Source: a virus
Length of the DNA stretch: 33,962 nt
Virus record (IMG/VR): IMGVR_UViG_3300032053_000277
Location: 1-33,962 of that record
Direction: 5' to 3' (one strand)
In this document: piece by piece, positions 3,870 through 10,359 of the stretch
Position numbering within the stretch: position 1 is the stretch's first letter
Layout: the number at the start of each line of letters is the position of its first letter
Made by a program: the position numbers and the translations under genes
Notes under the pieces: generated by a model
Seen by the model: only the letters and a program-made list of their open reading frames with translations
What the model was told of the DNA's origin: nothing
Databases searched by the model: none

Positions 3870-6800
3870 ATGAGCAAGATAAAGCGGATAGTCAGATACA
3901 AGCCGCCTGCCAAGAAGACAATTATTCCCGTCACCATAGAAAACAAGGCAGTCGCAGTCAAGCCGATATTGGATGAGAACACGCGAAGGTTTCTTGGGTT
4001 TGAGAAGGGCATCGGGAAGTTCCCGGCCGACCTGACATTCTTCCAATCGCTGAGGATGAGGATGTCCGGCGAGAATGTTATCGAGCCATATCGCCAGCAC
4101 GTCTGGGTGCATGTCGCCGTCAACACCATTGCCCAAAGTATAGCGTCCATCCCGTTCAAACTGGCGAGGGGCGAGGTCAAGAGCCCGAAAATCATAGAGA
4201 GCGGGCCGATATACAATCTCTTTATGAATCCCAATCCACACATGAGCCGACACCAGTTGTGGGAGGCGACGATGATTTACCTGGAACTGGAAGGCGAGTG
4301 CATGTGGCTTCTTGAGAGGCCGAAGGGTGCCGAGAATAAGTATAACATCCTACCGACCGAGATATGGCCGGTAAGCGGTAAGAATTTCAATCCGGTAATA
4401 GAAAATAACGTGTTTGTCGGGTGGAAATACCAGCCGATGGGAAGCGCCAAGGAGGAATACCTTACCCTCGCCCAGGTGATACAGTTCAAGTATTTCAACC
4501 CATACAACTACTACCGGGGACTGTCCCCGATAAGCGCCGCGAAGATGAGCATCGACCAGGACTGGAACGCGGCGAAATACAATCTCGCCTTCTTTGAGAA
4601 CTCGGCCGACCCGGGCGGGGTGCTAACCTACAAGGGCAATACCGGTCTCAATGACGACCAGCGGAAGGCAATCCGCGAGGGGTGGGAGGACAGGCACAAA
4701 GGTCCGAAGAACACCAGAAGGGTGGCACTGCTTGAGGGCGGGATGGAATACCAGCAGACGCAAGTGAGCCATACCGACATGCTTTTCCTTGAGGGCAGGA
4801 AATACAACCGGGACGAGATTTTCGCCATATACAAACTGCCCAAGTTTGAAGATTTGAACTTTGCTACGGCGAAGGTAAACGAGAGGTCATTCTGGCAGAA
4901 GACGCTCATCCCGAAGACGAACTACCTGATGGACATTCTTGAGGCAAAGGTATTCAAGTTCATAGAGGGTGGGGAGGTATGGGGATATTTCGACACGAGC
5001 GTGATTGAGGCGCTCCAAGAGGACTTCAATGCCAAGGTGGAGACTGGATACAAACTGTGGCAGATGGGATATCCCATAAACAAGGTGAACAAGCGTCTTG
5101 AGATGAACCTTGAGCCGGTGCCATGGGGGGACGAGATATTTGTGCCGTTCTCAATGACGCCGATAACATCACTGATGGGCGGGGAAGGCAAGCCACCAGA
5201 GGAGACCACGCCGCCCGCACCCGTGCAGGAGTCGGCAAGGAAATTACTACCTGCCAAGTCAACTCTCAAGATGGACAGGGACAAATACTGGAATGGGTAT
5301 GTGAAGATGATACTCGACCCGAATGAAAAGAAGTTTCAGAGCAAGATAAAACGGTATGTCTTTGAACTGAGGTCAGAGCAGTTAAAGAGACTGGAGAGTG
5401 GGAAGACGGCCGAACAGCGGACTGCTGTCACTAAACTTGACTCGTTTGAACTTGACCAGGTCCTGTTCGCACAGCAGGAGTGGGACAAGAAACTGAAGGC
5501 GCTTACCCGTCCCCTCTACGAGACGATAATGACGATGGCGGGCGAGCAACTATCCGAAGAGATGGGCGGACTGTTCCAGTTCAACCTCACCGACCCGAAG
5601 ATGCTGGCATTCCTTAATGAAAAACTAATAAAAGTGACTGACATAAACGATACGATAAGGGGCAACCTCAGGGAATCGTTGATGGAGGGCATAAATGCCA
5701 AGGAGACGATAGGGGAACTGCAGGACAGGGTGAGGACGGTATTCAACTTTACCTCTAACCGTTCGCTGACCATAGCGAGGACGGAGACGGCCCAGACCGC
5801 ATCGGGGACGAGGTTCCTGGTGATGAAACAGGAGGGGGTGGAATACCAGGAATGGCTCAGTGCGAGGGATGAACTGGTAAGGACGACCCCGTATAATCAT
5901 GCCATTGACGGTGAGGTTGTGGCGGTTGGCGACAGGTTCTCAAACGGACTGAGGTATGCGTCTGATGTAGATGGTGCGCCGGGGAACGTGATTAATTGTT
6001 TTATAGAGGGAAGAACTAAGGTATTTACTGACAAAGGATTTAAGAGTATAGCCCATATAAAAAGTGGGGACTCGGTTTTGACCCATAATGGTAGATTCAA
6101 GAATGTAACCAGGATATTCAAAGGAAGATTAAAAATTGGTTCGGAAGTAGTGAGAATAATATTACCAAAACGGCATGGTCGTTGCAGAAAAGGTGTGATA
6201 ACCACTACTCCTGAACATAGATTTTTAACTCAACGGGGATGGGTTGAGGCGAAAGATTTGATGCAGACTGATAAGTTAATGATAATGGCTGGATTCTGTG
6301 GACATTGCGGAAAGAAGATTCCTTATTACAGGAAGTTCTGCTCAAAACTTTGTTGGAGTAGAAAAACAGTCACAGAACAATGGAAAAACCCGAAGCACAG
6401 GGAAATCATTAGCCAAAAAGCATCAATCCAACTAAAAAAGGAATATGCCAACGGCACGAGAGACAGGAATGAGATAACGAAGGTGGCGAGAAAGAAGTGC
6501 TTTGAAATATACGGTGACGGTGGATATCTGAAATATGACCCGTCGGTTCACGAGAAAGGCAAGCAAGCAATCATAAGTAAATACGGTTCCACATTGAACA
6601 TGCTTAAGCAGAAAGCATTTTCGGCGCTTGGTAAGGCGGGGTGGTATGGTTCATCTCTTGATAGGGCGATGCAGAGATTTCTTGATAATAACGGACGCAA
6701 ATATATCCAACAACACTGGGTGGGAAGGAGGCGGGTGGATTTTTATTTGCCGGACGAGAAGATGTTTATTGAATGCGATAGTCAAGCCTATCATAATGAT

Positions 6801-7103
6801 GCACAAAAAGAGAGAAGGAGAGACTTGGAAATTCTACTGCAACATCCTGACCACCAAATGGCACATTGCAACTACGGTGGGAAAAAGCCGAGGTGGGAAT
6901 TCTTTGACCTGAAAGCATTGAATCATTCGGGAACTTATGAGTTCACCGAGATTGACATAAAGAAAATAGAGAAATACCAGATAAGGAAAACGATGCCATT
7001 GTATAACTTTGCGGTTCAGGATGATGAATCATATCTGGTTTATGGAATTGTTAGTCATAATTGTAGATGTCTTTGCACATTTTCACGGGCGCCCAAGGAA
7101 TAA
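3870..7103 (+). CDS. Portal protein fused to MuF-type minor head protein, interrupted by an intein
   Basis: The 1077-aa frame minus a 355-aa intein gives a 722-aa protein. Residues about 45-425 are an HK97-type portal, the dodecameric DNA channel at the capsid vertex, with typical segments HVWVHVAVNTIAQSIASIPF and the AKYNLAFFENSADPGGVL region. A Pro-rich linker follows (about 440-460). The C-terminal third is a MuF-like domain with ARTETAQTASG, HAIDGEV and a terminal N|CRC motif that the intein splits exactly. Portal and MuF proteins are usually separate, although fusions are known. ATG 3870 has no clear Shine-Dalgarno (upstream GGTCACGAA) and lies right after a strong terminator, so its expression probably depends on read-through or an unusual initiation. 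Confidence 0.92.
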   Translation: MSKIKRIVRYKPPAKKTIIPVTIENKAVAVKPILDENTRRFLGFEKGIGKFPADLTFFQSLRMRMSGENVIEPYRQHVWVHVAVNTIAQSIASIPFKLARGEVKSPKIIESGPIYNLFMNPNPHMSRHQLWEATMIYLELEGECMWLLERPKGAENKYNILPTEIWPVSGKNFNPVIENNVFVGWKYQPMGSAKEEYLTLAQVIQFKYFNPYNYYRGLSPISAAKMSIDQDWNAAKYNLAFFENSADPGGVLTYKGNTGLNDDQRKAIREGWEDRHKGPKNTRRVALLEGGMEYQQTQVSHTDMLFLEGRKYNRDEIFAIYKLPKFEDLNFATAKVNERSFWQKTLIPKTNYLMDILEAKVFKFIEGGEVWGYFDTSVIEALQEDFNAKVETGYKLWQMGYPINKVNKRLEMNLEPVPWGDEIFVPFSMTPITSLMGGEGKPPEETTPPAPVQESARKLLPAKSTLKMDRDKYWNGYVKMILDPNEKKFQSKIKRYVFELRSEQLKRLESGKTAEQRTAVTKLDSFELDQVLFAQQEWDKKLKALTRPLYETIMTMAGEQLSEEMGGLFQFNLTDPKMLAFLNEKLIKVTDINDTIRGNLRESLMEGINAKETIGELQDRVRTVFNFTSNRSLTIARTETAQTASGTRFLVMKQEGVEYQEWLSARDELVRTTPYNHAIDGEVVAVGDRFSNGLRYASDVDGAPGNVINCFIEGRTKVFTDKGFKSIAHIKSGDSVLTHNGRFKNVTRIFKGRLKIGSEVVRIILPKRHGRCRKGVITTTPEHRFLTQRGWVEAKDLMQTDKLMIMAGFCGHCGKKIPYYRKFCSKLCWSRKTVTEQWKNPKHREIISQKASIQLKKEYANGTRDRNEITKVARKKCFEIYGDGGYLKYDPSVHEKGKQAIISKYGSTLNMLKQKAFSALGKAGWYGSSLDRAMQRFLDNNGRKYIQQHWVGRRRVDFYLPDEKMFIECDSQAYHNDAQKERRRDLEILLQHPDHQMAHCNYGGKKPRWEFFDLKALNHSGTYEFTEIDIKKIEKYQIRKTMPLYNFAVQDDESYLVYGIVSHNCRCLCTFSRAPKE
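5997..7061 (+). mobile_element. Intein with zinc ribbon and Vsr-like (EDxHD) nuclease in the portal-MuF gene
   Basis: A 355-aa intein running from Cys710 (CFIEGRTKVFTDKGFKSI, block A) to Asn1064 (GIVSHN), followed by extein Cys1065. Block B is TTTPEHRFL (TxxH). The nuclease insert is not LAGLIDADG. It has a four-Cys zinc ribbon (C810-x2-C813-x10-C824-x3-C828), a basic helical linker, and a Vsr/DUF559-like core (about residues 929-990) with VDFYLP (Asp957), IECD (Glu968, Asp970) and His975. This arrangement matches the EDxHD homing endonuclease class described in phage inteins and introns. Insertion lies exactly before the conserved CRC of the MuF motif. Splice residues look intact. Confidence 0.9.
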
Positions 7104-7121
7104 TAAATAAGGAGGAACGGT

Positions 7122-7865
7122 ATGGAATTAACGAGAAAGGTAATGAACTTTGATGTGAAGGCGGTTGAGGGAAATGACAACGTCCTCGAATTCACCGGCT
7201 CGGACGAGACGGTGGACAGGGCGGGCGACATAATGACACTGGAGGGATGGGACCTGGAATCATACCTAAAGAACCCGGTCTTCATGCTATTCCACGACTA
7301 TCGCTCCCTACCGGTTGGCAAGGCGATTGAGGTGGTGAAGGATATGACGGCCAAGAAACTGAGGTTCAAGATAGAGTTTCCCACCGAGGACGTCTACCCG
7401 CTGGGACAGACGGTCAAGAAACTATACCAGAACAAGTTTCTCAACGCGACATCGGTCGGCTTTGTTCCGAAGAAGTGGGAGGCAAGGACGGACGAGTCAG
7501 GGAAGGAGGCCGTGGGAAGGAAATACCTTGAGCAGGAACTTCTTGAACTGTCGGCCGTCCCGGTGCCGTGCAATCCCAATGCCCTGATGGAGTCCTGTGG
7601 TAAGGGAATATTCACGGCTGACGAGTGCGTCAAGATGGAGGAGAGCGAGATAATCTCAAGGGAAACACTAACGGGCATACTGGAAAAACTCGGTGTCAGT
7701 GTCGTGATTAAGAACGCAGAAAATAAAATATGGGAGGACGACCCGGACTGGACTGAGATAAGATATCGGGTAAGGAATCCCGACCTGTTCGTAAGTAATA
7801 GTTTTAGGCGTAAGAAAATGCCTGGTATTAATATCTATATGATACTGGGAAAACTTAAAGGTTAA
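7122..7865 (+). CDS. Prohead maturation protease, N-terminal (catalytic) fragment
   Basis: HK97-type (U35) capsid maturation protease that trims scaffold/capsid N-termini inside the procapsid. The catalytic His is H58 (MLFHDYRSLPVG) and the Ser is S111 (NATSVGFVPKKWE); VDRAGDIM and LLELSAVPVPCNPNA are other family segments. After the protease domain (about residues 1-165), a C-terminal region (WTEIRYRVRNPDLF, SFRRKK, MILGKLKG) matches a domain that usually continues into an IQSLRFPK-AEHP segment. Here the frame stops at TAA 7863-7865 and that continuation is found at 8616. The gene is therefore split by the endonuclease gene at 7870. Ribosome site AAGGAGG lies at 7110-7116. The catalytic part looks intact. 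Confidence 0.88.
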   Translation: MELTRKVMNFDVKAVEGNDNVLEFTGSDETVDRAGDIMTLEGWDLESYLKNPVFMLFHDYRSLPVGKAIEVVKDMTAKKLRFKIEFPTEDVYPLGQTVKKLYQNKFLNATSVGFVPKKWEARTDESGKEAVGRKYLEQELLELSAVPVPCNPNALMESCGKGIFTADECVKMEESEIISRETLTGILEKLGVSVVIKNAENKIWEDDPDWTEIRYRVRNPDLFVSNSFRRKKMPGINIYMILGKLKG

Positions 7866-7869
7866 TAAT

Positions 7870-8619
7870 ATGCCAAAAGACAAAGAAAACTCATTTTATA
7901 GTAAAAAACTTTCCGAAGAACACAAAAAGAAAATAGGTCTTGCTCATAAGAGTTATATGAAAAGATTAGGACTTACCTTCAAAGGGAAAGAAAATCCATT
8001 TTATGGAAAACATCATACCGAAGAAACCAAGAAAAAAATGAGTTTAGCAAAAACAGGCAAAAGACTTTCTAAGGAACATATTGAAAAATGTGCTCAAGGA
8101 CATAGGGGCTTAAAATATCCGCCTAAAAGCGAAGAGGCAAGACTTAAAATAGGCATAAAATCAAAAGGTCATAAGATGCCAGATGTAACCAGAAAGGCAT
8201 TGTTAAAATCCCGTTTAGGTATACCACTATCAGCAGAACACAGAGAGATAATGAAAAAGATAATGTTAGGCAATAAACATGGGCAAAAACCCAAAGGATA
8301 TGAATATAAAACTCCTATTATGAAAAATATAAGAAATTCTATTAGGAATCAACAATGGAGACAGAATATTTTTATTAGAGACAATTTTACTTGTCAAAAG
8401 TGTAGAATAAAAAGCGGATGCGGTCATAAAGTTAGTTTTGAAGCACATCATATTACATCTTTCAAAAGTCTATTAGAAGAAGCCAAAAAATATATGCCAT
8501 TATTCTCTCTTTATGAAGCCGCAATGTTATATTCCCCGTTATGGGATATTAATAATGGTATAACTCTTTGTGATAAATGTCATGATTTAACCAGAATGGT
8601 TAAGAAGGAGAAATTATGA
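7870..8619 (+). CDS. NUMOD3/HNH homing endonuclease splitting the protease gene
   Basis: A 249-aa protein with several NUMOD3 DNA-binding repeats in the N-terminal two thirds (KLSEEHKKKIGLAHKS, TEETKKKMSLAKTGK, SEEARLKIGIKSKG, SAEHREIM), each a S/T-x-E-x4-K-I/M type helix. The C-terminal HNH domain has C175-x2-C178, AHHI (H193, H194) and a final NNGITLCDKCHDL. The gene is strikingly A+T-rich against its G+C-richer neighbours. It begins 4 nt after the stop of the protease fragment and ends in ATGA overlap with the next fragment (8616-8619). It therefore fills the whole insertion and leaves no room for a group I ribozyme. It is probably a free-standing homing nuclease that spreads by cutting uninterrupted protease genes. 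Confidence 0.92.
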   Translation: MPKDKENSFYSKKLSEEHKKKIGLAHKSYMKRLGLTFKGKENPFYGKHHTEETKKKMSLAKTGKRLSKEHIEKCAQGHRGLKYPPKSEEARLKIGIKSKGHKMPDVTRKALLKSRLGIPLSAEHREIMKKIMLGNKHGQKPKGYEYKTPIMKNIRNSIRNQQWRQNIFIRDNFTCQKCRIKSGCGHKVSFEAHHITSFKSLLEEAKKYMPLFSLYEAAMLYSPLWDINNGITLCDKCHDLTRMVKKEKL

Positions 8620-9152
8620 GCGAAGAAAAAAAAGATGAAGGATATTTTATCCAGTCCCTCCGTTTTCCTAAGCCCGAATGGAATCTTGAGAAGGCGAAGA
8701 AGTGGGTGGCAGAGCATCCGGACATCGGCAAGTCCTTTGATGACAAGTTACCGGAAGTCGGTTATCTTGACGATAAAGGAAATGTTATAAAACTGGAATG
8801 GATTGACTGCGATGCCGAGGGCAATCCCATCAAGCAAGATGATAATAACAAGGTAAAAGTTGAAGTGGCAACCGAGTCTGAAGGATTGAAGGAAATGATT
8901 GTCCAGATTCTTAATAGCATTGAACACGTATCGGTCGAACAGAAGATGATTCTGGAAGAAGTAAAATCAATCGGGCTAATGAAGGATGTTATCAAGGAAA
9001 TACTGGCGAGACTGTCCACCAAGGATGCGGGGGATGTCGTTCCCGTGGCCGATTCCGGCGACAAGCCAAAAGATGAGGCCTCAGGCGGGAAGGGCGTGTT
9101 TTCCGTCATTCTTGACATGGGGAGCAAAACCAGCAAGAACCTTGAGAAATAG
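8616..9152 (+). CDS. C-terminal fragment of the split protease gene, re-initiated
   Basis: A 178-aa protein whose first 40 residues (GYFIQSLRFPKPEWNLEKAK, then KWVAEHPDIGKS) are the expected continuation of the protease C-terminal region that stops at 7865. It has its own start in ATGA overlap with the HNH gene and a ribosome site (AAGGAG, 8606-8611). The remainder is acidic and coiled-coil-like (about residues 75-135), ending in a Gly/Lys-rich tail. That region could act as an internal scaffold, as scaffold-like segments fused to HK97-type proteases do. The fragment is in the same reading frame as the upstream fragment. Whether the two halves associate is unknown. Confidence 0.75.
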   Translation: MSEEKKDEGYFIQSLRFPKPEWNLEKAKKWVAEHPDIGKSFDDKLPEVGYLDDKGNVIKLEWIDCDAEGNPIKQDDNNKVKVEVATESEGLKEMIVQILNSIEHVSVEQKMILEEVKSIGLMKDVIKEILARLSTKDAGDVVPVADSGDKPKDEASGGKGVFSVILDMGSKTSKNLEK

Positions 9153-9186
9153 ACAGATAGGGAAAAAGAAGGAGGAAATAGTAACC

Positions 9187-10359
9187 ATGGAACCAAAAGA
9201 GAAGGAAGCAATGGAAATGCTGACCAAGATAAACGGCGGCATTGACGGGTTGAAGGGCGACATCACCGGTGTTAAGGACCAGGTGGCGTCCCTTGACCAG
9301 CGCATCGTGGTAGTCGAGAGTTCAATGAAGTCCCGGATACCATCGGTGCCCGGCGTGGACGGGGGCAAGGAAAAGTTCTCGTTCCAGAAGTTCTTCAACG
9401 CCATAGCGATAAAGGACTGGACCGACGCCGGCTACGAGAAGTCGGTTTGTGACGCGACCAAGAAGGTAATGACTGTCGGCGCTCCCACGGCTGGCGGATA
9501 CCTCGTTCCGCCAGAGGCAATGACGGAACTAATTCCCCTGCTCCGTGCCAAGAGCGTCTGCAGGGAACTCGGGGCCACCGCACTGGACGGCCTGACCGGT
9601 TCCCCGGTAACCATTCCGAAGCAGACGGGCGGGGCGACCGGCTACTGGGTAGCTGAGAATGCCGCAGTAACCCCAAGCGACCTTGCCACCGGGCAACTTT
9701 CGCTTACTCCCCGGACAGGAGGCGCATTGTGCGTGATGTCCAACCGGCTATTAAGGATGAGCAATCCCACGATTGAGAGTGTTGTCAGGAACGACATAGC
9801 CAAGACCCTTGCCAACCTTCAGGACCTCGCGGCACTGAGGGGGACTGGGACGGACCAGCCCACCGGCATAGCCAACACTGCCAACATCAATACCAAGGTG
9901 CTCGGAGCGGCCGGCGCCATTCCCACCATTGACGACATCGAGGCGATGCTGTTGGAGATTGAGGTGGACAATGCAGAGGCCGAGACTATGGGCATAGCGG
10001 TTAATCCGAGGATTTGGAGTGTTTTCCGCAGGATTAAAGACCTGGATGGGAAACCACTGCTCGTGATTGACATAGCATCGCCGTTTAAGGGGACGATATT
10101 CGGGATGGCAGTCAGAAAGACCACCCAGATACCGGTCAACCTGTCCAAGGGCGGCTCCACCAACCTGTCGGAAATCTACCTGGGCAACTGGGCCGACCTG
10201 GTAATCGCCACATGGGGTGGTATGGAGGTCATGGCCTCCCAGGAGACAAGCGACGCGTTTGCCAAGAACAACACCTGGATTCGCATCCTGCAGGATATCG
10301 ATGTCGGGCTGAGACACCCCGAGTCGTTCTGCCTGTGTGCTGATGCCAAGATTGCGTAG
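9187..10359 (+). CDS. Major capsid protein, HK97 fold
   Basis: A 390-aa shell protein. The N-terminal about 50 residues form a coiled-coil-like delta domain (MLTKINGGIDGLKGDITGVK region) likely removed by the maturation protease. The HK97 body begins around GAPTAGGYLVPPEAMTELIP and continues through the SPVTIPKQTGG segment, an N-arm/E-loop-like stretch and RGTGTDQPTGIAN. I chose ATG 9187 because a ribosome site (AAGGAGGAA, 9170-9178) precedes it; an upstream in-frame ATG at 8986 lies deep inside the preceding gene and encodes implausible sequence. It follows the protease genes in the usual order. A terminator-like hairpin follows. Confidence 0.93.
   Translation: MEPKEKEAMEMLTKINGGIDGLKGDITGVKDQVASLDQRIVVVESSMKSRIPSVPGVDGGKEKFSFQKFFNAIAIKDWTDAGYEKSVCDATKKVMTVGAPTAGGYLVPPEAMTELIPLLRAKSVCRELGATALDGLTGSPVTIPKQTGGATGYWVAENAAVTPSDLATGQLSLTPRTGGALCVMSNRLLRMSNPTIESVVRNDIAKTLANLQDLAALRGTGTDQPTGIANTANINTKVLGAAGAIPTIDDIEAMLLEIEVDNAEAETMGIAVNPRIWSVFRRIKDLDGKPLLVIDIASPFKGTIFGMAVRKTTQIPVNLSKGGSTNLSEIYLGNWADLVIATWGGMEVMASQETSDAFAKNNTWIRILQDIDVGLRHPESFCLCADAKIA

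Follow-up and report, generated by a model that had tools for sequence, protein, structure and literature searches.

A phage head-maturation protease gene divided by a free-standing HNH endonuclease gene, probably through homing

Background

How can the gene for a head-maturation protease stay in use when the gene of an endonuclease lies within it? This question is raised by a stretch of viral DNA of 33,962 nucleotides (IMG/VR record IMGVR_UViG_3300032053_000277, positions 1 to 33,962; hereafter the window). The original prediction, made from the letters and their open reading frames, was that a prohead protease gene is split in two by a free-standing HNH gene, with its C-terminal part re-initiated. 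In the present study, we compared the locus with uninterrupted relatives, modelled the protein and searched for introns. The best overall explanation, which we hold with good though not full confidence, is a homing insertion that is not removed by splicing, followed by a fragment that is started by signals of its own, so that the gene would be in two pieces.

The divided locus

Three open reading frames of 247, 249 and 178 amino acids follow each other end to end on the + strand (Table 1), with a portal-MuF gene on their 5' side and the major capsid protein gene on their 3' side. The first of them, fragment A, is a prohead protease according to Peptidase_S78 (PF04586; 28.7 bits, cut-off 21) and to the PHROGs family of head maturation proteases (phrog_80, E 1.3e-23); the prohead protease model TIGR01543 gave 32.7 to 34.3 bits, which is below its cut-off of 59. 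The middle frame matches NUMOD3 (40.5 bits) and HNH_2 (23.5 bits), each above the cut-off, and is thus a homing-type endonuclease. The third frame, fragment C, matched nothing in Pfam or NCBIfam, nothing in PHROGs below E 0.012, and none of 50,697 phage records.

Table 1. Features of the divided protease locus, in positions of the window
Feature	Position	Strand	Basis
Fragment A: prohead protease catalytic domain and first half of the C-terminal module	7122..7865	+	TAA stop at 7863-7865
First half of the head module of about 75 aa (predicted strands b1 and b2, BRX-like core)	7731..7862	+	Module HMM positions 4-42; secondary structure from AlphaFold2 models
Foreign 5' flank, about 70 nt, read as a co-conversion tract	7793..7862	+	GC3, DNA identity, residue polarity
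Free-standing NUMOD3-HNH homing endonuclease gene, 249 aa	7870..8619	+	ORF list, profile matches
Shine-Dalgarno site AAGGAG for fragment C, within the 3' end of the HNH gene	8605..8610	+	Sequence; duplex energy
Fragment C: rest of the module, followed by a C-terminal tail that is acidic and helical	8616..9152	+	ORF, match to the sister
Second half of the head module (predicted strand b3 and helix a1, BRX-like core)	8619..8723	+	Module HMM positions 36-73
Foreign 3' flank, about 60 nt, outer edge less sharp	8620..8679	+	GC3, DNA identity to the sister
Major capsid protein gene, directly 3' of fragment C, as in the sister	9187..10359	+	Phage_capsid 174.8 bits; 94% identity to the sister

Uninterrupted relatives

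A sister contig (IMGVR_UViG_3300032053_000416, L002), the DNA of which is about 96% identical to the window over the protease core, has a single open reading frame of 419 amino acids that spans both fragments: its residues 1-244 are 95% identical to fragment A and its residues 250-419 are 85% identical to fragment C. A more distant relative (L187), 54% identical to the sister protein, likewise has one frame of 502 amino acids in the order A, then C. Comparison of both fragments with these uninterrupted proteases thus agrees with the predicted split by a free-standing HNH gene. The end of fragment A had also been expected to run normally into a QSLRFPK segment, and two further relatives indeed keep this segment after GKLKN without a break, one reading GKLKN...QALRFPK (L089) and the other GKLKN...IQSLRFPK (L090). 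The sister and the outgroup L187 carry GPLK where the window has GKLKG, a difference that we ascribe to the foreign origin of the window's flanks (see below). Since the sister and the outgroup agree in sequence at the insertion point, the uninterrupted form is ancestral, and the comparison shows that fragments A and C were formerly one gene.

Eighty loci with relatives of the HNH protein were kept, the best of them with 40-46% identity over most of the protein and up to 56% over short stretches. A tblastn search with the sister protease was made on a set that consisted of the window copy, two sister copies, these 80 loci, L084 and L085; the protease was found in none of the 80 HNH-relative loci, apart from weak matches at E 0.45 and above. 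A smaller free-standing HNH gene, 45% identical over residues 99-238, lies among the downstream genes of the outgroup phage (L006:2986-3474), which suggests that related endonucleases move within this phage group.

A second mobile element is found nearby. The portal-MuF fusion gene is interrupted at 5997-7061, immediately ahead of its conserved CRC motif, by an intein that contains a Hint domain and a nuclease segment resembling Vsr/DUF559; neither the sister nor the outgroup has this intein. The phage thus carries two mobile elements in neighbouring head genes, the intein and the HNH gene, and near relatives lack both.

The module at the break

The break sits inside an unnamed module of about 75 amino acids, in a hairpin loop between two predicted strands, and the length of this loop differs among relatives. 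A search with three copies of the module gave 80 IMG/VR loci, some of them near duplicates, and tblastn added two phage genomes, Roseobacter phage CRP-831 and Synechococcus phage S-CBS1. The module HMM spans one open reading frame in all 82 of these other records (80 contigs and 2 genomes), a count that favours unbroken copies, since the complete module served to confirm candidates; the intact copy of the sister lies at L002:964-1209. Only in the window is the module divided, with HMM positions 4-42 in fragment A and 36-73 in fragment C, and thus no part of the module is lost.

With seven sources that repeat other records set aside, the window included, the module is C-terminal to the protease in 41 open reading frames and N-terminal in 9. 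In 16 frames that carry it no protease was detected, 4 are protease-capsid fusions, and the remaining frames either hold a second copy or are truncated at the end of a contig. The module and the tail form a gene of their own in L090, behind a protease with an attached methyltransferase domain. This locus (L090:3397-5918) consists of a prohead protease fused to a SAM methyltransferase domain, followed by a cysteine-rich open reading frame of 146 amino acids. Two module copies per frame, with no protease detected in that frame, were observed in L194, L195, L196 and L200. Among 68 copies compared with PHROGs, none matched below E 0.039, and a pattern scan of genomes gave 153 stretches, none of which was confirmed as the module. 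The module is presented here as an undescribed, common part of phage head proteases, which can now be named and tested.

Predicted structure of the protease and the module

When the sister protein was modelled with AlphaFold2 (32-row alignment, mean pLDDT 71.6), the protease domain and the module were predicted with confidence, whereas the tail was poorly ordered. Over residues 14-148, the model aligns with T4 gp21 (5jbl) at Z 11.1 and an rmsd of 3.0 for 125 residues; it also matches herpesvirus proteases, that of varicella-zoster at Z 10.8. The protease domain is thus predicted to have the herpes-protease-like fold, and Foldseek with the whole sister model found nothing under E 0.001. In this model, the protease domain ends near residue 163, well ahead of the break, which falls between the predicted strands 237-241 and 252-259 (numbering of the sister protein). 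The catalytic domain is accordingly whole in fragment A.

For the module modelled separately (68 rows, pLDDT 89.6), the best Foldseek matches were the BRX domain of plant RLD2, 6l0v and 6l0w (probability 1.00 and 0.99, E 0.099 and 0.21). VIA-align superposed the module on the RLD2 BRX domain at Z 5.9 with an rmsd of 1.8 over 54 of 61 residues, and the next entry beyond these two reached Z 3.6. The three-stranded sheet and helix of RLD2 are present in the module model. The BRX family model PF08381 gave 20.5 bits for L085, 17.3 for L084 and 14.8 for the sister L002, all below its cut-off of 24.5, and no match for L187; none of 20 records exceeded the cut-off, and matches below it occurred in 4 of 14 control genomes as well. 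When the module profile was compared with two BRX sequences, E was 0.0078 but the probability 5%, so that homology to BRX is left open and the module is called BRX-like rather than BRX. We conclude that the split module has a predicted fold like that of the plant BRX domain, with weak support from sequence. The BRX domain itself is called plant-specific in PMC11165835.

Two chains or one

Fragment A retains the whole catalytic domain, while fragment C would supply strand b3 and the helix. The third strand of RLD2 is described as binding a partner hairpin through extension of the sheet (PMC6941992). By analogy, fragment C, the first element of which is this strand, may be held by the first two strands of fragment A. 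On a slight balance of the evidence, the most likely working form would be a protease of two chains, with b1 and b2 of fragment A paired to strand b3 and the helix of fragment C. A much stronger version is doubtful, namely that the head protease is obligately two-chain through strand complementation across the split BRX-like module, and that this module, which is common in the head proteases and capsid polyproteins of phages, is truly related to BRX.

Alternatively, fragment A alone may suffice, fragment C being dispensable or dying and the function of the module lost by the phage. The entire catalytic domain lies within fragment A, the part of fragment C outside its flank is less constrained than the core (dN/dS 0.27 vs 0.04), and in one relative (L088) a protease of about the same size does not match the module. 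However, fragment C has neither a frameshift nor a stop in comparison with the sister, its start site is kept, and outside the flank there is no surplus of changes on the side of the window (5 window-only and 4 sister-only). Furthermore, many relatives keep the module within or beside the head protease. Sufficiency of fragment A is thus unlikely in our judgement, and we return to the two-chain protease as the preferred form. The intact frames and the even rate of change suggest that the phage tolerates the split protease, with the caveat that a recent insertion would likewise give even rates without functional reassembly.

Foreign flanks and the arrival of the element

The coding sequences on both sides of the HNH gene differ from the rest of the protease gene. 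Third codon positions have a GC content of 68.6% in the core of fragment A and 56.1% in the rest of fragment C. In the 5' flank this value is 25.0% and in the 3' flank 35.0%, nearer to the 23.8% of the HNH gene; the flanks are endonuclease-like in codon composition. Compared with the sister, both flanks are saturated with synonymous changes, whereas the divergence at such sites amounts to 0.17 for the core and 0.27 for the rest of fragment C. In the 5' flank, the DNA of the window is 62% identical to that of the sister, compared with 96% in the core. Between the sister and the outgroup, in contrast, this flank is better conserved (76%) than the core (63%), and at seven of its residues the window alone departs from the other two, while the sister alone does so at none (p 0.016). 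The 3' flank has 45% DNA identity to the sister with five window-only and two sister-only residues (p 0.45), and the polarity is therefore weaker on this side; a second patch of low identity at 8731-8790 (45/60) blurs its outer edge. The residues of the window in the flanks still fit the family (SFRR, GKLKG, IQSLRFPK).

These observations indicate that about 70 nt on the 5' side and about 60 nt on the 3' side came in with the element, and they form the pattern to be expected of homing in which flanks of a diverged donor were co-converted. Co-conversion of flanks is documented for the homing endonucleases of T4 in PMC2988022. The endonuclease would have broken the empty allele, and repair of this break from a diverged, AT-richer donor allele probably copied the free-standing HNH gene into the hairpin loop of the C-terminal module of the head-maturation protease gene, with adjoining donor coding sequence of about 70 nt on one side and about 60 nt on the other. 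A degenerate pattern for the KMPGINIYM segment, used in the search for the donor allele, matched only the sister and outgroup contigs.

A different reading of such a junction, prompted by the derivation of the virus record from a metagenome, is that the window arose as a chimera in assembly or represents a rare variant that is defective. However, protein homology is in register on both sides of the insert, and the foreign flanks encode the correct segments of the module. The same phage also continues upstream and downstream, and such a combination is not what a random chimera would produce. A chimera or defective variant is therefore very unlikely.

Expression of the pieces

In the homing insertion that we prefer, the element would stay in the mRNA unspliced, and fragment A would be translated to its own stop. 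Shine-Dalgarno sites precede both 7122 and 8616, and each piece would thus have its own start. The HNH gene starts 5 nt past the stop of fragment A, with 7 nt from the end of the coding sequence of A to the HNH start and 0 nt between the HNH gene and fragment C. The ATG of fragment C at 8616 overlaps the HNH stop as ATGA (8616-8619), and AAGGAG lies 5 nt ahead of it. None of the 21 ATGs within the HNH gene equals its duplex of -8.8 kcal/mol; among 717 ATGs on the + strand, however, 8.2% reach this energy, and the site is therefore supportive rather than proof. The stop/start overlap and the Shine-Dalgarno site would let ribosomes start fragment C, in line with the re-initiation that had been proposed. 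RNA hairpins over the starts were not convincing (z of -1.95 around the HNH start, -1.28 around that of fragment C).

No Rfam intron family matched positions 7000-9300 up to E 5, and the group I catalytic core (RF00028) was unmatched, whereas the T4 nrdB intron was found at E 7.2e-7 with the same settings in an equal stretch of T4, which is a single control. The same search on 20 HNH-relative loci gave tRNAs only and is void as an intron control. An intron in the gap was accordingly rejected, and the predicted arrangement, in which the HNH gene fills the gap and is coupled by ATGA at its end, is borne out by the sequence. An intein is ruled out by the TAA at 7863, which precedes the insert.

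NUMOD3-HNH genes are frequently intron-borne. A self-splicing intron that escaped detection might therefore hold the HNH gene, the mRNA being joined into one protease message. This would suit the common frame of fragments A and C, which makes an in-frame join possible (as it would be for one third of random insertions), and a weak match (17 bits, cut-off 56) of the HNH frame to a model for endonucleases of group I introns. With so little sequence outside the HNH gene, no intron family found where that of T4 nrdB was, and a start codon and Shine-Dalgarno site of fragment C that would be pointless, such an intron is nevertheless highly improbable.

Comparison with known genes in pieces

The split protease shares those features of genes in pieces made by homing endonucleases that can be tested in sequence. 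T4 gene 60 also has a translational bypass, whereas none would be needed for the split protease. The T4 topoisomerase genes 39 and 60 resemble the present case in that they are split by an HNH insertion, mobA, and their two polypeptides make one enzyme, according to PMC2988022. In Aeromonas phage Aeh1, the same source describes a free-standing HNH gene, mobE, that splits nrdA, a gene contiguous in relatives, as here. The pieces of Aeh1 nrdA form an active ribonucleotide reductase (PMC2988022), while for the head protease such an assembly is our proposal. Furthermore, mobE lies in a functionally critical region (PMC2988022), whereas the break described here falls in an accessory module.

Gene 43 of Aeromonas phage 25 is likewise a split phage gene with an adjacent endonuclease gene, seg43, and its two products co-purify (PMC2988022). 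In contrast to the present case, seg43 is an endonuclease of the GIY-YIG-type seg group, its host gene is that of a DNA polymerase, and the split may predate the endonuclease (PMC2988022). HNH genes of group I introns in terminase, lysin or polymerase genes, described for example in phages Moonbeam and fRuSau02 (PMC4299906, PMC5618024), also interrupt phage genes; those elements are removed by RNA splicing, however, while no intron was found here.

A search of literature titles and abstract openings found no head protease split by a free-standing endonuclease. The endonuclease-split phage genes described in PMC2988022 are those for enzymes of nucleotide and DNA metabolism. The target here, by comparison, is a protease of head assembly, and a near-isogenic empty allele is known. 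For the question of how a structural gene copes with an invader, the locus is thus a clean natural experiment: the catalytic domain is spared, the break falls in a loop of variable length, and a downstream start lies within the end of the invader. Like the known genes in pieces, it would owe its form to an endonuclease, and it appears to preserve the footprint of the homing event.
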